Assembly (NCBI GenBank): GCA_021772075.1
Contig: JAETNQ010000030.1
Coordinates: forward strand, 1 to 48,732
Direction: 5' to 3'
DNA length: 48,732 nt
Source: Lachnospiraceae bacterium
Lineage (GTDB): Bacteria; Bacillota; Clostridia; Lachnospirales; Lachnospiraceae
Shown here: positions 13,942-48,384 of the stretch, one piece after another
How the letters are laid out: the number at the start of each line of letters is the position of its first letter
Position numbering within the stretch: the first letter of the stretch is position 1
Position numbers and translations under genes: made by a program
The notes under the pieces: model-generated
The model's database searches: none
Told to the model about the DNA's origin: nothing
The model's input: the letters and a program-made list of their open reading frames with translations, nothing else

Positions 13942-14094
13942 CTTTTCTTCCATTTCTGCACAATATAGTATTGCGTTTGGCAAATTGAAATCGTTATCTT
14001 TTTTTATTTCTGGGAGGCTTTACTGTGCATGGATTGAAATTTTTCATTTCCAATCTGCTTACTTCAATTATCAATGGAAAATTAACAGAACAAT

Positions 14095-14131
14095 AGTGTT
14101 CACATAAGAACACTGTTCACATAAGAACACT
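14095..14131. repeat. Tandem palindromic repeat, candidate operator pair
   Basis: AGTGTTC-ACATAA-GAACACT (14095-14114) is a perfect 7-bp palindrome. It is followed at once by GTTCACATAAGAACACT (14115-14131), a second copy of the same unit. The arrangement looks like adjacent repressor sites. It lies in the non-coding space between the minus-strand XRE gene and the 398-bp palindromic element. The rest of 13942-14166 shows only AT-rich sequence. Confidence 0.5.
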
Positions 14132-14166
14132 ATTTGCATAAAAATGTTATGCGTGGTGATAAACAG

Positions 14167-14564
14167 GGAAATCAATTTTGTCAGGCCGTGAGCCGGGCGG
14201 GGAGGAAGAGGGGCGGTGGAAGGAGGGCAGGGGGAGTACAGCGGGGAACAGGTTGGGAATGGTTCTGCCGCTGCCTTACGCAGAGAAATGAGATTTTCTT
14301 AATATTCCGTTCAGCAAACAGCAATTTGGTGACACGGATGTCACCAAAAGCCCGCCATGAGCCCGGATGGCGAATCGCGGGCGGTTGCGCCCGGCTGATA
14401 TTGCTTTACCCGGAATATTTAGAAAATCCATTTCTCGGAGTTGGCACGGTGAAACCATTCCCAACCTGTTCCCCCCGCCGTTCTTCTCCTGCCGTTTCCC
14501 CTGCCCTCCTTCCACCGCCCCTCTTCCTTCCCGCCCGGCTCACGGCCTGACAAAATTGATTTCC
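14167..14564 (+). repeat. 398-bp palindromic element, copy 1 of a dispersed family
   Basis: The outer arms (14167-14233 and 14498-14564) are inverted copies of about 67 bp with one substitution. Inner arms GGGGAACAGGTTGGGAATGG (from 14243) and its complement (to 14474) continue the pairing after a gap. The interior (14265-14452) holds nested inverted motifs: ATTTTCTTAATATTCCG facing CGGAATATTTAGAAAAT, the hairpin TTTGGTGACA-cgga-TGTCACCAAA (14325-14348) and CGGGC-ggttgc-GCCCG (14378-14393). No credible gene lies inside. A homologous copy lies inverted at 38168-38550. The ends read GGAAATCAATTTT and AAAATTGATTTCC. Confidence 0.85.
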
Positions 14565-14585
14565 TTGGGTGGTAAAAAAGAGAGC

Positions 14586-18901: not shown

Positions 18902-18957
18902 TTTACAAACATATGTATAAATGATATAGTAAAAACAGAGAATTATACATATGTTTG
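18902..18957 (+). promoter_or_regulatory. IS transposase promoter framed by a 15-bp inverted repeat
   Basis: TTTACA (18902-18907) and TATAGT (18925-18930), spacer 17. CAAACATATGTATAA (18906-18920) and TTATACATATGTTTG (18943-18957) are perfect inverted copies flanking the -10 box. The same CATATGTATAA core recurs near the right IS end (about 20529), so these may be transposase-binding sites that also repress the promoter. Confidence 0.6.
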
Positions 18958-18968
18958 GAGGAATCCGT

Positions 18969-20528
18969 ATGGCATCTTTAGTTTATCTAAAACACAAAAA
19001 TGGCACCACATACGTTTATGAAAATGTCTCCTATTGGGATAAAAATTCAAAAAAGCCAAAATCAAAACGTAAGTGCATTGGACATCTTGATCCGGAAACC
19101 GGATCAGTGCAGCCAAATGGTATGCACGGCGGTAATCGGAAAAATACTGCGCCAAAACCTGAAAAAGAGCCTCCCAGATGCTTTACTTACAGTTGTGGTG
19201 TATCTGCCCTTTTAGATAAGGTGTGTGCAGATATTGGACTTGCCCATATACTGAAAAAGAGCTTCCCCAATGACTGGGATGCCATCCTGACATGTGCCTA
19301 TTACCTTGTTAGTGAGGGACAGGCGTTGTCCAGAACCGAAAGGTGGTCTCAACAGGCAATTACACCTTATGGCGCGATGCTTGCCGACCAACGGATCAGT
19401 GAACTGCTGGGACGAATCACGCCAGAACTTACACAGGCCTTCTTTTCAGCATGGCTGGAACATAACAGCGGTGACAGGTATTACTGTATGGACATTACAA
19501 GTATATCATCCTACAGTGAGATGAACGAATTTGTATCATACGGATATAACAGGGACAGGGAAAAACTTCCACAGATCAATCTCCTGATGGTCAGCGGACA
19601 TGCAAGCCATCTTCCCTTATTCTTCAGGGCTATGCCCGGGAGCATCCATGATGTCAGCACAATGGATGAAAGTCTGGAAAGGCTTGACCTTGTTGACGCG
19701 AAAAGGCTGCATATGGTCATGGACAAAGGTTTTTACAGTGAGGACAATGTGGATGCCATGTACACAAGACGCATGAGATTTCTGATTGGTGTTCCGTTTA
19801 CGACGTCCCTTTCCTTGGATGCGGTAGAACGTCACCGCAATGATGAAATGGTCTCTTACCGCCATTATTGTAATGTCCTCGGGGAAGAACTCTATGCGGA
19901 TACGGAACCCATAAAGTGGAAAGGGCACCGCTGCTACCTTCATATTTATTTTGATAGTATCAAGGCTGCGCTGGATGAGAAAAAGTTCAGCCATCGGATC
20001 CTGACAGAATATGAGGAACTATGCTCAGGGAACCCAGTAAAAGAGCATCAAAAGGATTATGAAAGATTTTTTATAGTCAAAGAGACACCTAAGAGGGGCA
20101 GGAAAGTTGAATACAATCAAGAAGCTATAGACATCCACAGGAAGAACAGCGTGGGCTGGTTTGTGCTTGCCACAAATGATATCAAAAATCCAGTGGAGGC
20201 ACTTGAAGTATACCGGATGAAGGATGCGATAGAAAAACATTTCGATGACCTAAAAAATGATCTTGATATGAAAAGGCTGCGTATCCATTCCTCTGCGGCG
20301 ATGGATGGCCGGCTGTTTATCCAGTATATTGCCCTGATACTATCTTCCCAGGTCAAAAACATCATGAATGCGGCCGGATGGTTCAAGAGCCACAATATGC
20401 AGGAAGTTATAGATGAGATGAAATCCCTGAGGGTGATTTCTCTTGAAGGAAAACGTAAACAGATCTATACAACAATAACAGCTTTTCAAAAAGAAATCAT
20501 TGGACTCTTTGAACTTAACATCGGTTGA
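18969..20528 (+). CDS. IS1634-family (IS4-like DDE) transposase
   Basis: About 519 residues. The N-terminus MASLVYLKHKNGTTYVYENV is typical of the family. DDE catalytic residues are likely the Asp in YYCMDITSIS, the Asp in VMDKGFYS and the Glu in MKDAIEKHFDDLKNDLD, the last belonging to the conserved C-terminal catalytic helix. GGAGG lies 7 nt before the ATG at 18969. The frame is intact from start to stop and the element's ends are well preserved, so it is probably still mobile or recently was. Its low-GC codon use differs from the serpin gene it interrupts. Confidence 0.92.
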   Translation: MASLVYLKHKNGTTYVYENVSYWDKNSKKPKSKRKCIGHLDPETGSVQPNGMHGGNRKNTAPKPEKEPPRCFTYSCGVSALLDKVCADIGLAHILKKSFPNDWDAILTCAYYLVSEGQALSRTERWSQQAITPYGAMLADQRISELLGRITPELTQAFFSAWLEHNSGDRYYCMDITSISSYSEMNEFVSYGYNRDREKLPQINLLMVSGHASHLPLFFRAMPGSIHDVSTMDESLERLDLVDAKRLHMVMDKGFYSEDNVDAMYTRRMRFLIGVPFTTSLSLDAVERHRNDEMVSYRHYCNVLGEELYADTEPIKWKGHRCYLHIYFDSIKAALDEKKFSHRILTEYEELCSGNPVKEHQKDYERFFIVKETPKRGRKVEYNQEAIDIHRKNSVGWFVLATNDIKNPVEALEVYRMKDAIEKHFDDLKNDLDMKRLRIHSSAAMDGRLFIQYIALILSSQVKNIMNAAGWFKSHNMQEVIDEMKSLRVISLEGKRKQIYTTITAFQKEIIGLFELNIG

Positions 20529-32112: not shown

Positions 32113-33008
32113 TGAATGAATATGAACGTTATAAGGAATATATGGAGGATGAATTGGACGAGCAGTTTTCTGTTTTCAGCGTTTCCCATCTGCTTTCCAA
32201 ACTCTCCGATTACAATCGCGTCATTTCAGAAAATGAAATACCGGGGACTTTATTATTTCGCGGCCAATCGGATGTGGATTTTGGCGTGGACGGAAGTATT
32301 TTCAGAAACGGGCTTCTGGCAAAGGAAACGGCTTTGGTTAATGAGCTGATCCTGCAGGAGCCGTTAGAATTCGGAAACCATATGACGGATTTTGAACAGC
32401 TGGTGAAAATGCAGCATTACGGGCTGCCTACCCGGCTTTTGGATATGACCACCAATCCATTGGTCGCCCTTTACTTTGCCTGTGCCGAGTACGAAGATAA
32501 GGACGGGGAACTGATCCTGTTTATTGAGTCTTTGCAGCGCCCTACCCAGAAAGAGGTAAGGCTGCTTTCTGCGCTTGCGGAATACGATGGGAAGAGCGAA
32601 GGGGACTTCCTGGATTATTTTTCTAGAAAAGGGCTGAGCGATGATATGCAGTCCGGCTTTGACCAGAGATTAGAGCGGTTGAAAATACAATTTCAAAATA
32701 AATATGTTCCTGTCGTCGCGCCGAAAAATAACGAAAGAATAAGAAGGCAAAACGGCGCATTCCTCATTCTCGGCATTGATATATCCGCTCCTGATTATTA
32801 TTTAAAAAATAAATTTGATTTGAGGGATACATTAAGCACGTATGTTGACGAGGGCATTCCAAGATATTTGCGGATACCGGCGGAACGAAAGGCTTCTATT
32901 TTGCACGAACTCGATATGATTGGCATCAATGAAGCATTTGTATATCCCGAACTGGAGCATCAGGCGGCATACATAAAGAAAAGGCATTGCGAAAAGGCAG
33001 GTGAGTGA
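32109..33008 (+). CDS. FRG-domain protein inside the type I RM operon
   Basis: A 299-residue protein with the FRG motif LLFRGQSDVDF near residues 48-58 and supporting MQHYGLPTRLLDMTTNPLVA near 98-117. It starts within the end of hsdS (4-bp overlap) and its stop lies 1 bp before the hsdR ATG, so all three are translationally coupled. FRG domains occur in accessory and defence loci; no enzymatic activity is certain. Its fixed place between specificity and restriction subunits suggests an added effector or control function for this RM system, which is inference. Confidence 0.85.
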   Translation: MMNEYERYKEYMEDELDEQFSVFSVSHLLSKLSDYNRVISENEIPGTLLFRGQSDVDFGVDGSIFRNGLLAKETALVNELILQEPLEFGNHMTDFEQLVKMQHYGLPTRLLDMTTNPLVALYFACAEYEDKDGELILFIESLQRPTQKEVRLLSALAEYDGKSEGDFLDYFSRKGLSDDMQSGFDQRLERLKIQFQNKYVPVVAPKNNERIRRQNGAFLILGIDISAPDYYLKNKFDLRDTLSTYVDEGIPRYLRIPAERKASILHELDMIGINEAFVYPELEHQAAYIKKRHCEKAGE

Positions 33009-33009
33009 T

Positions 33010-36000
33010 ATGGCCGCTTTCATAGAAGATAATCTGGAACAGGCGGCGATGGAGTGGTTTCGGGACTTGGGCTACCAGACGCAATATGGACCGGATCTTT
33101 CCCCGGGCGGCAGTTTTTCTGAAAGGGAATGTTTTGGAGACGTCGTTTTGTACGACAGGCTATACCATGCGCTAAAACGGATTAACAGGCAATATTCGGA
33201 CGATATTATTGCGGAGCTGGTAAAAAAAATTACCCGCCAGCAGAGCATGTCCATCGTACAGAATAATGAAAATTTCCAAAGGCTGCTTACGGAGGGCGTT
33301 GATGTTGAAATCAGCCGGCAGGACGGCAGCTGCAGAACGGAAAAGGCATACATTTTTGATGCGGAAGATATTGAAAATAATGAGTTTCTGGCAGTGAATC
33401 AGTATACTGTGATTGAAAACGGAAAAGAACGAAGGCCGGATATTGTTGTTTTTTTGAATGGTATTCCCGTCGTTGTGATAGAGTTGAAAAATATAGCGGA
33501 TGAACAGGTGGGGATTGCAGACGGTTTCTACCAGCTTCAGACATATAAAAATGATATTCCTTCTTTATTTTATTATAATGCGTTTATGGTAACAAGCGAT
33601 GGCATCCATGCGAAAGCGGGGACGATTACCTCTGATCTGGATCGTTTTATGTTTTGGCGGACTATTGACGGCAATAAGGAAGTCTCTTCAGGGCTTTCCC
33701 AATTACAGACCATGTTGTATGGGATGATGGATAAAAAGAGGTTTTTGGATATCATTTCGAAGTATAGTTTTTTTGCGCGGGAGGAAGATAAATCATATAA
33801 GATCCTTCCCGGATACCATCAGTTTTTTGCAGTCAACAAAGCCTTGTATGCTACTCATTTGGCGGCTTCTGAACATGGGAACAGAAAAGTTGGCGTGATC
33901 TGGCATACGCAGGGCAGCGGAAAAAGCTATTCCATGCTGATGTATGCGCGGCAGCTGGTTTTGGAATTAAATAATCCAACCATTGTCGTTATTACGGATA
34001 GAAACGATCTGGACGACCAGCTTTTTGCTACATTTGCCAAAAGTGCCGATTATTTGCGCCAGATCCCGAAACAGGCGGATACGAGAAAGGAGCTGCGGAA
34101 GCTTCTGGACGTTCAGGCGGGGGGGATTATATTTACTACGATCCAGAAGTTTGCGCCTGATGAAAGCGACCGTTCGATGGAGGCTTTGACGCGAAGGCAC
34201 AATGTAGTAGTGATTGCCGATGAGGCGCACCGCAGCCAATATGGCCTGAAAGCAAAGGAAAAAGACGGCAAAATATCTTATGGCTTTGCAAAGCATATGC
34301 GGGATGCGCTGCCTAATGCCTCCTTTATTGGATTTACGGGAACGCCGATTGAGCTGGAGGATAAGAATACTCCCGCTTTATTTGGCGATTATATCGATAT
34401 TTATGACCTGACTCAGGCTGTAAAGGATGAAACCACCGTACCGATCTACTACGAAAGCAGAATTGCGAAATTGAATCTTTCGAAGGAATCGAAGCTTAAA
34501 ATTGATGAAGAATATGATATCCTTGTGGAAGGGCAGGAAGAGGATTATGCGGAGAGCCAAAAGAAAAAATGGACAAGGCTTGAAGCAATTGTTGGAACGG
34601 ACGGCCGTATCAACGATGTCGTGAAGGACTTTCTTTTGCATTATGAGCAGAGGCAGCGGGCGATTGACGGAAAAGTTATGTTTGTGGCAATGTCCAGGAA
34701 GATAGCTGTTAAGCTGTATTCTAAAATAAAAGACTGCCGCCCGGAATGGCACAGCGATGAACTGGAGAAAGGCGTGATAAAGGTCGTTATGACCTCCCGG
34801 GCATCAGATCCGCCCGAATTCCAACCACATGCGACGACAGCGGCGCAGAGAAGGATTCTTGCAAAACGGATGAAAAACCCGGACGATGAATTGAGGGCTG
34901 TTATTGTCTGCGATATGTGGCTGACGGGTTTTGACGTACCTTGTCTTCATACCATGTACCTCGATAAACCGATGGGCGGGCATCATCTGATGCAGGCTAT
35001 CGCCCGGGTGAACCGCGTATTTCAGGATAAGCCGGGAGGCTTGGTCGTCGATTATATTGGGATTGCCGATAATTTGAGGAACGCGTTGACCCAATATACT
35101 GCTTCGGACAGAAAAACGACGGGCATCGACCCGCAGACCGCAGTCGATTTTATGCTTGAAAAATATGAGCAGATCCAGGGAATATTGCATGGGTTGGACT
35201 ATTCCGCATATTTGAAAGGCACTGCCGGCGAGAGAGTGACATGTATTGTGTCAGGCGTGGATTTCGTATTGGGAAAAGGAGCGGAGGAAAAGAAGGAGTT
35301 CCTTCGTCTGGTTATGGAGATCGGCAAAGCATATGCCCTTTGCGCAACCTCGGAACAGGCCCAGAAGATCAATGTGGAAATCAGTTATTTTAAGGCTGTT
35401 AAGTCAGGAATGGCAAAAAAATTGCCGAAAGATGAATCGAAAAAAGCAAAAAACCAGATCGAGTATGAAATAGGGCAATTAGTTTCTAAGTCGGTTATTT
35501 CGGAAGAAGTGGTAGATATCTTTGCAGCGGTTGGACTGGATAAACCGGATCTTTCTATATTGTCCGATGAGTTTCTGGAAGAAGTCAAGAGTCTGCCGCA
35601 AAAGAATCTGGCATTGGAATTGATGCGCCGGCTGCTCGACGGAAGAATCCGGTCCATTGCAAAAAAGAATGTTGTGCAGGCGAAGAAATTCTCGGAAATG
35701 CTGGAGGCTGCCGTGATACAGTACGAAAAACGTTCGCTGGAAACAGCGGAGGTTATTCAGGCATTGGTCGATATGGCTAAGGATATGAACGAGCTTCATA
35801 AGAGGGGAGAACAGCTTGGCCTGTCGGAGGATGAACTGGCATTTTATGACGCGGTTTCTTCGAATGAATCCGCAAGAGACTTTTACGAAAATAGTGTTCT
35901 GAAGCAAATTGCCAAGGAATTAACGGTCAGCGTTAAAAATAATATTAAAGTAGATTGGAATATTCGGGAAAGCGTTCGGGCACAAATGAGGATCACGGTA

Positions 36001-36105
36001 AAGCGGCTTCTTAGAAAGTATAAGTATCCGCCTGATCAACAGGCGGCTGCGGTTGACCTGATTATTGAACAGGCAGAAAAAATGTGCGAAAATGAAGTCG
36101 GTTAA
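33010..36105 (+). CDS. hsdR: Type I restriction endonuclease subunit R
   Basis: About 1031 residues. The N-terminal PD-(D/E)XK nuclease is at about 140-162 (RPDIVVFLNGIPVVVIELKN: D...ExK). The superfamily 2 translocase follows: Walker A HTQGSGKSYSMLMYA near 300, DEAH box VVIADEAHRSQYG near 400, motif III GFTGTP, and motif VI QAIARVNRVFQDKPG. The helical C-terminal part (about 700-1030) should contact HsdM/HsdS. ATG at 33010 (AGGTGAG 5 nt upstream) is used rather than the overlapping GTG at 33001. The frame is intact, so the RM system appears functional. No terminator T run was found before the converging gene 25 bp downstream. Confidence 0.96.
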   Translation: MAAFIEDNLEQAAMEWFRDLGYQTQYGPDLSPGGSFSERECFGDVVLYDRLYHALKRINRQYSDDIIAELVKKITRQQSMSIVQNNENFQRLLTEGVDVEISRQDGSCRTEKAYIFDAEDIENNEFLAVNQYTVIENGKERRPDIVVFLNGIPVVVIELKNIADEQVGIADGFYQLQTYKNDIPSLFYYNAFMVTSDGIHAKAGTITSDLDRFMFWRTIDGNKEVSSGLSQLQTMLYGMMDKKRFLDIISKYSFFAREEDKSYKILPGYHQFFAVNKALYATHLAASEHGNRKVGVIWHTQGSGKSYSMLMYARQLVLELNNPTIVVITDRNDLDDQLFATFAKSADYLRQIPKQADTRKELRKLLDVQAGGIIFTTIQKFAPDESDRSMEALTRRHNVVVIADEAHRSQYGLKAKEKDGKISYGFAKHMRDALPNASFIGFTGTPIELEDKNTPALFGDYIDIYDLTQAVKDETTVPIYYESRIAKLNLSKESKLKIDEEYDILVEGQEEDYAESQKKKWTRLEAIVGTDGRINDVVKDFLLHYEQRQRAIDGKVMFVAMSRKIAVKLYSKIKDCRPEWHSDELEKGVIKVVMTSRASDPPEFQPHATTAAQRRILAKRMKNPDDELRAVIVCDMWLTGFDVPCLHTMYLDKPMGGHHLMQAIARVNRVFQDKPGGLVVDYIGIADNLRNALTQYTASDRKTTGIDPQTAVDFMLEKYEQIQGILHGLDYSAYLKGTAGERVTCIVSGVDFVLGKGAEEKKEFLRLVMEIGKAYALCATSEQAQKINVEISYFKAVKSGMAKKLPKDESKKAKNQIEYEIGQLVSKSVISEEVVDIFAAVGLDKPDLSILSDEFLEEVKSLPQKNLALELMRRLLDGRIRSIAKKNVVQAKKFSEMLEAAVIQYEKRSLETAEVIQALVDMAKDMNELHKRGEQLGLSEDELAFYDAVSSNESARDFYENSVLKQIAKELTVSVKNNIKVDWNIRESVRAQMRITVKRLLRKYKYPPDQQAAAVDLIIEQAEKMCENEVG

Positions 36106-38115: not shown

Positions 38116-38167
38116 CTGTTGCCGCCATAGCTTTTTCCCAACTGGTCGAAATGGATTTCCCTGACAT

Positions 38168-38550
38168 GGAAATCCATTTTTGCGGGCGGTAGGCAAGGCA
38201 GGGCGGGAAAGAAGAAGGGCGGCGGCAGGAAGGCAGGGGGAGCAGATGGGGAATGGTTTTGCCGTGCCGGCTCCGGGAAATAGATTTTCTAAATATTCCG
38301 GTGTCGTTGTACCAGCCGGACGCAACCGTCCGCGATTCGCCATCCAGGCTCATGGTGGACTTTTGATGACATCCTTGTCATCAAATTGCTGCATGTCAAA
38401 CGGAATATTAAGAAAATCTCATTTCCGACGCAAAGCTGCGTTGCGTAAGGCAACGGCAAAGCCATTCCCCATCTGTTCCCCCTGCCTTCCTGCCGTTGCC
38501 CTTCTTCTTTTCCACCCTGCCATGTCTGCGGTCCGCAAAAATGGATTTCC
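38168..38550 (-). repeat. 383-bp palindromic element, copy 2 (inverted relative to copy 1)
   Basis: The perfect 18-bp ends GGAAATCCATTTTTGCGG (38168-38185) and its complement (38533-38550) are followed by arms of about 115 bp that pair imperfectly. The interior, read on the minus strand, aligns throughout with copy 1 at 14167-14564. Its hairpins are TTTGATGACA/TGTCATCAAA (38362-38385) and CGGAC/GTCCG (38317-38332). TTTCCCTGAC flanks the element as a direct repeat (38156-38165 and 38555-38564), possibly a target duplication. No gene is evident in the whole 38116-38692 gap. Confidence 0.85.
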
Positions 38551-38692
38551 GTGGTTTCCCTGACGTTACCCCTTGAAAGTTTCAGAAATATATAATATGA
38601 TATTTATGTGTTTCTGAAAAAATATAAAGCAGCTGCAAAAAGGAGCGCGCGCTGTCTGGCAGGAGCGTTCCGGCATGGAGGATGGGATAGAT

Positions 38693-48331: not shown

Positions 48332-48384
48332 GGAAACCCATTTTGCCAGGCGGCGGCCGAGACGGGAAAGCAGAATGGATTTCC
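48332..48384. repeat. Short palindrome with the family terminus GGAAA(T/C)CCATTTT
   Basis: GGAAACCCATTTT (48332-48344) faces AGAATGGATTTCC (48372-48384). This is the same terminal motif as the elements at 14167 and 38168 but with only about 27 bp between, like a solo or deleted member. A separate 9-bp hairpin AGTTCAGCC/GGCTGAACT follows at 48391-48412. Confidence 0.55.

Follow-up and report, generated by a model that had tools for sequence, protein, structure and literature searches.

TwoAYGGAY (Rfam family RF01731) has been listed in print as a probable RNA that is probably not cis-regulatory (PMC2864571, tabulated entry), and Rfam labels the family Cis-reg. Passages in two further papers state that covariation extends an annotated RF01731 helix (PMC7657543) and propose that TwoAYGGAY binds CsrA (PMC4333381). 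The passages of this literature on which we drew do not describe the family as mobile, and they mention neither target duplications nor long arms that form a palindrome. Two kinds of bacterial repeat share features with the elements described below: MITEs, which are short and non-coding, with inverted ends, a target duplication of fixed length and many intergenic copies, and the palindromic intergenic repeats of the REP/BIME/REPIN type, which occur in close pairs of opposite orientation and serve as landing sites for insertion sequences. In addition, template switching, whereby one arm of an inverted repeat templates the other and concordant multi-base changes result, has been described for short inverted repeats (PMC8604942), and a proposal holds that it both generates RNA stems and keeps them intact (PMC8794818).

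We analyzed a 48,732-nt stretch of DNA from a Lachnospiraceae bacterium (contig JAETNQ010000030.1, hereafter the window, meaning the whole stretch), which carries two elements that resemble each of these systems and differ from each. Both contain full-length RF01731 cores scoring far above the cut-off, but these cores sit within a mobile element of about 400 bp with long palindromic arms. The MITE-like features listed above all recur, but nearly the whole element is one palindrome, each copy has an arm sequence largely its own, the two arms change as mirror images, and a partial check found no parent insertion sequence. Compared with REP sequences of 20-40 bp (PMC3733652), the two elements in the window measure 404 and 390 bp and are flanked by 9-bp duplications. 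Finally, the template-switch cases in the passages cited concern short repeats, lying within genes or in RNA stems; the arms described below are long and belong to a whole repeat family. We consider it probable that these are non-autonomous, MITE-like mobile DNA elements built around a TwoAYGGAY core, with arms rewritten through hairpin extrusion and template switching.

The first-pass annotation had reported two homologous, non-coding palindromes in opposite orientation. Both are indeed present, related and oppositely oriented (Table 1), each a few bases wider than first given once the flanking duplications are read. Neither contains a transposase or any other gene, and we take the mechanical ORFs that cross them, the only ones there, to be spurious. 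Copy 1 is flanked by genes for a YgjP-like peptidase and a TetR-family regulator, and copy 2 by genes for a GNAT acetyltransferase and a DUF6106 protein. The outer arms are 97% complementary over 70 nt in copy 1 and 88% complementary over 101 nt in copy 2. Predicted as single-stranded DNA, each copy folds mostly as one long hairpin, with z = -24 (copy 1) and z = -20 (copy 2) against dinucleotide shuffles.

Table 1. Coordinates of the two palindromic elements and their parts in the window.
Feature	Position	Strand	Remark
Copy 1, complete palindromic element, subfamily A, 404 bp	14164..14567	+	inverted arms; boundaries from duplication
Copy 1 left target-site duplication GGTGATAAA	14155..14163	.	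8/9 match to right one
Copy 1 right target-site duplication GGTGGTAAA	14568..14576	.	read from sequence
G-rich left arm of copy 1; outer end CAGGGAAATCAATTTT	14164..14275	+	
Copy 1 core, RF01731 TwoAYGGAY, 117.7 bits	14276..14443	+	
Copy 1 hairpin 1, loop ACGGAT at 14334-14339	14325..14348	+	structure line of model alignment
Copy 1 hairpin 2, loop CCGGAT	14350..14382	+	structure line of model alignment
C-rich right arm of copy 1, mirroring the left arm	14444..14567	+	
Copy 2, complete palindromic element, subfamily A, 390 bp, inverted	38165..38554	-	
Copy 2 target-site duplication TTTCCCTGA, first copy	38156..38164	.	read from sequence
Copy 2 core, RF01731 TwoAYGGAY, 108.5 bits	38268..38433	-	
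Copy 2 target-site duplication TTTCCCTGA, second copy	38555..38563	.	read from sequence

Both cores match RF01731 over model positions 1-168, at scores (Table 1) to be compared with a gathering cut-off of 43 bits, and the model alignment confirms two hairpins with AYGGAY-type loops. The earlier proposal of a structured RNA or a new repeat family thus stands as regards a mobile repeat, but the interior is not novel, since Rfam already covers it, and a match to an Rfam family was among the outcomes that the first-pass annotation had itself named as refuting its proposal; on the same grounds, a new RNA family for the core was rejected. A match to MIR1858 (72.2 bits, cut-off 137) was dismissed as a chance product of the G/C-rich arms.

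The count of two copies proved to be a considerable underestimate. The genome to which the window belongs (G000) contains 53 RF01731 matches, so that a two-copy element was rejected, and a congener (G015) contains 62, whereas none was found in 14 control genomes. Searched against G000, the sequence of copy 1 returned, besides itself, 79 further rows, where one palindromic place can yield a row per strand. Several G000 contigs start or stop inside a copy, an effect that repeats have on assemblies. Three surveys, each including the window's own genome, give lower bounds, as the filters were stricter and few candidates were scored per genome: RF01731 was detected in at least 14 of 41 near genomes, and samples of 299 genomes from the family and 398 from the phylum contained it in at least 45 and at least 51 cases, with 43 and 34, respectively, scoring over the cut-off. 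A protein search for relatives with names led to the Lachnospiraceae. Among 80 named loci found through the IMPDH protein, a recognizable core was present anywhere in the stretch in 2, so that these loci shed no light on the site of copy 2. Two exact core patterns had no match in viral contigs, nor did copy 1 as a query against plasmid and phage records.

The matches in G000 form two score groups, subfamily A at about 106-122 bits, which includes both window copies, and subfamily B, mostly at 69-90 bits; the division, by score rank, is our own and places three partial matches of 55-65 bits in A. Elements are mostly about 280-480 bp long. For measurement we used 97 of them, 46 of the 53 in G000 (the other 7 being partial or at a contig edge) and 51 of the 62 in G015 (too little flank having been fetched for 11); 94 had arms long enough for comparison.

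Several lines of evidence bear out the earlier view of a mobile repeat: copies are dispersed, their ends are conserved, duplications flank them, and some sites are empty in a relative. The end motif GGRAATCMATTTTNNC, allowing one mismatch, occurs 95 times in G000 (47 forward, 48 reverse) and 97 times in G015, compared with a single match to the reversed control pattern in each genome (in G000, 1 forward and 0 reverse), and several subfamily B copies have degenerate ends. Target duplications of 9 bp (at least 8 of 9 letters matching) flank 11 of 20 subfamily A copies in G000, both window copies among them, versus 2 of 200 displaced controls. The signal is weak in the remaining groups, namely subfamily B of G000 (1/25 versus a null of 3/239) and subfamilies A (3/21 versus 5/210) and B (5/28 versus 5/280) of G015. 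Empty sites in relatives had been proposed as a check, and two copies do face an empty site in the other species: the G000 copy at L036 (empty in G015 at L119) and the G015 copy at 1549697 in L138 (empty in G000 at L056). At the latter site, 8 nt next to the junction are missing from G000, and the flanking 9-mers, compared by eye, agree at only 5 of 9 letters. The GC skew of the flanks revealed no replication-strand bias overall (44/94 positive); in subfamily A, 14 of 41 were positive (p = 0.06 and 0.05 in two tests).

A fixed 9-bp duplication is typical of DDE-type transposases, and because of it we infer that an enzyme of this type, supplied in trans, may move the element. A partial check of G000 and G015, in which end-motif lists were read by eye, found no autonomous transposase with matching ends, and only scattered weak end matches were seen at 7 DDE_Tnp_1 loci (up to 2 mismatches) and at the 6 of 16 PF06782 loci scanned (up to 3 mismatches). 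ISLre2 (PF06782) was rejected as the partner, there being none in G000 and no convincing ends at those 6 loci, as was an IS4-like element of G015, whose ends and 10-bp duplication differ. The window itself carries a DDE_Tnp_1 transposase gene (18951-20528, 525 aa), at a locus without a pair of element ends. Inward-facing end pairs within 44-132 bp of each other, with no RF01731 match listed, occur at G015 C3:679139-679182, G000 C102:63149-63202 and G000 C69:40487-40618, and are perhaps deleted remnants.

The arms set this family apart. In 92 of the 94 copies from the two genomes, a copy's own arms match each other better than its left arm matches that of any other copy, so that the within-copy similarity previously noted for the window generalizes to nearly the whole set and fails, of all places, for window copy 2, where one arm is 17 nt longer and the L039 copy is closer by the left-arm measure; the other exception is L064. 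In subfamily B, mean identity is 0.80 between cores of different copies and 0.55 between their arms (shuffled baseline, 0.46), versus 0.94 between the arms of one copy; the corresponding values in subfamily A are 0.85, 0.57 and 0.89. It could be supposed that we are dealing with an ordinary MITE whose arms are alike merely through recent copying, and the duplications, ends and copy number would fit a MITE. Recent spread alone is insufficient, however, because under it arms and cores should be equally similar from copy to copy, and the arms are far less so (0.55 versus 0.80 in B, 0.57 versus 0.85 in A), making this reading very improbable.

Consistent with the earlier observation that the arms change together, in a greedy selection of 23 non-overlapping pairs of copies, out of 194 pairs whose arm identity was at least 0.68, 457 arm substitutions were concordant, 202 affected a single arm and 33 left both copies mismatched, and the indels in the same pairs numbered 44 concordant, 35 single-arm and 11 other. 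The ratio of transitions to transversions was 265:192 for concordant changes, 163:39 for single-arm changes and 311:149 in the core. Concordant changes are not simply copied point mutations, because their share of transitions is lower; block rewriting fits better. Among arms over 60 nt, the median length is 100 nt and the longest reaches 158 nt. Elsewhere in the family, arm length varies from 7 to about 195 nt (the L290 tandem apart). Of 40 phylum loci beyond the family, 22 have a left arm of 25-34 nt that remains self-complementary, 14 have a longer one and 4 have no outer arm. Long arms are therefore patchy across genomes.

Arms that change together could be maintained by selection for RNA folding, as in a structured RNA that is spread by a mobile carrier, has both arms and core kept paired and perhaps titrates CsrA with its AYGGAY loops. 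The family is in Rfam with covariation, CsrA binding has been proposed in print (PMC4333381), and G000 carries CsrA. Among the near genomes, CsrA is present in 11 of 14 with RF01731 versus 17 of 27 without, which is no clear association, and co-occurrence was rejected as support. Neither do the copies keep the fixed orientation to genes expected of a cis-regulatory RNA: by a count resting on crude ORF calling, 21 of 94 lie sense and 25 antisense to neighboring genes, 34 between divergent and 9 between convergent genes, and 5 at locus edges.

Under selection on RNA pairing, the transcribed strand is expected to retain G·U mismatches and to lose A·C ones. The outer arms depart from this expectation: their mismatches are strand-symmetric in all three sets, with 160 G·U versus 184 A·C in the 94 copies of the two genomes, 56 versus 66 in 44 copies that come from elsewhere in the family, including congeners (the two L290 tandem copies share one outer alignment, part of which is counted twice), and 25 versus 31 at the 40 phylum loci outside the family, including the 4 without an outer arm. 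By comparison, a count over every position of three stems, in 15 tRNAs from the loci analyzed, gave 16 versus 0, in a small control chosen by ARAGORN, which prefers well-paired stems; the pairs called by ARAGORN itself (21:0) are biased. The core behaves differently in part. A column-based count of its stems gave 85 G·U versus 51 A·C in subfamily B (p = 0.004) and 52 versus 52 in subfamily A, and the apical hairpins gave 13 versus 4 (p = 0.049; strict loop rule, unique hairpins only, 16 of 180 cores yielding no hairpin), both excesses being as an RNA would have them. A looser loop rule, since superseded, had given 11 G·U and 19 A·C for hairpin 1 and 12 and 8 for hairpin 2. The column-based count replaces one that ran from the arms into the core (233 versus 384), whose inner part (67 versus 195) is an artefact of forcing the arm alignment through conserved internal mismatches. 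Thus, the arms look DNA-maintained, while the core may have an RNA role, and we judge the structured-RNA account of the whole element improbable.

Comparison of flanks identified five sites filled in both G000 and G015. At one of them, L032/L122, both junctions align within 6 bp, the flanks are 91% and 85% identical, and the 9-mers look homologous in both species by eye, which suggests that the insertion is older than the species split. The arms at this site are 97% and 95% self-matching within species, and between species they agree at 75-81% of aligned letters, with 45-60 gap columns; a 31-nt block is present in both G015 arms and missing from both G000 arms. A similarly mirrored block, of about 32 nt, distinguishes L054 from L136. 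Of the two causes of arm co-change first put forward, conversion or selection on pairing, the evidence favors DNA-level conversion, because the arm mismatches are strand-symmetric and the block changes are mirrored. At the site of window copy 2, the flanks align only at 84 and 46 bp from the element, and one intergenic site (L055/L124) holds a B copy in G000 and an A copy in G015 with a nearly identical left junction.

These shared sites also bear on whether the palindrome is restored only at transposition, for example in a folded single-strand intermediate where arm templates arm, and decays between moves. The single-arm changes resemble such ordinary decay in their 163 transitions to 39 transversions, and at the five shared sites the facing cores are not mutual nearest relatives (rank 22 to 67), each being closer to other copies in its own genome. 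Because of the latter, it is possible that replacement of whole elements by other copies, or fresh insertion, mimics in-place correction of the arms. Unless the element was replaced whole, the mirrored L032/L122 block implies correction after insertion, and we regard restoration confined to transposition as unlikely.

Under the mobile-DNA interpretation with template switching, the whole element would extrude as a DNA hairpin, for instance during replication, and a polymerase switching templates would copy one arm onto the other; the palindrome would be restored repeatedly while the arms rapidly drift in sequence and in length. In the folded strand, a protein would probably recognize the conserved hairpins of the core.

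A functional RNA is usually proved by compensatory base changes. Strand-unbiased compensatory changes in long arms are predicted by DNA template switching and not by the RNA explanation. The family would provide a natural, repeated test of the template-switch mechanism, and a "probable RNA of unknown function" would be recast as a mobile element. More tentatively, RF01731 as such may be primarily a mobile DNA palindrome rather than an RNA family, its RNA-like covariation having been produced by arm-to-arm copying at the DNA level. If this is true, the discovery of an entire Rfam family as RNA was led astray by covariation, and the element would be a sequence that mirrors itself, with its shape kept and its letters turning over faster than the surrounding genome.

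The system also yields a site-preferring mobile element with a hairpin loop as its landing place. The IS4-like element of G015, with the terminal inverted repeat TAATGTCATTAAGTTAGGCTTTG, is present there in 10 copies (loci L292-L310, L141 and L121), 9 of them with both ends, and its end, allowing up to 3 mismatches, is absent from the other 19 genomes searched. Its transposase scores over the cut-off with the DDE_Tnp_1 model and, typed on a truncated copy, reaches 102 bits with the IS4 family model, under the curated 115. All 9 two-ended copies, two of which span 2.6 and 7.2 kb, are flanked by perfect 10-bp duplications. Eight of the 10 copies (7 of the 9 two-ended ones and the broken tenth) interrupt a TwoAYGGAY core at the loop of hairpin 1; the landing site, in B-type cores of G015, is the equivalent of the hairpin 1 loop of window copy 1. 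The other two targets share, by eye, just the central GGA. REP repeats likewise serve as targets of insertion sequences (PMC1525189).

Some copies lie close together. All seven close pairs examined (L115, L117, L122, L149 and L151 in G015; L025 and L050 in G000) are arranged reversed-then-forward, 1-114 bp apart, and in 4 of the 7 the two cores are one another's closest or second-closest relatives in the genome, with differing arms; an exception to the arrangement is G197 C36, with two same-direction copies. Within the window, a separate 21-nt inverted repeat, AATAGTGTTCACATAAGAACA, lies just upstream of copy 1 (14092-14134). Adjoining copy 2, a stretch at 38145-38164 resembles an element end with 1 mismatch to the motif and is overlapped by the duplication of that copy. 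Near the contig end, an end-like motif at 48332-48347, also with 1 mismatch, is possibly a copy cut by the assembly. The window further encodes the R subunit of a type I restriction enzyme (HsdR) at 33001-36105.
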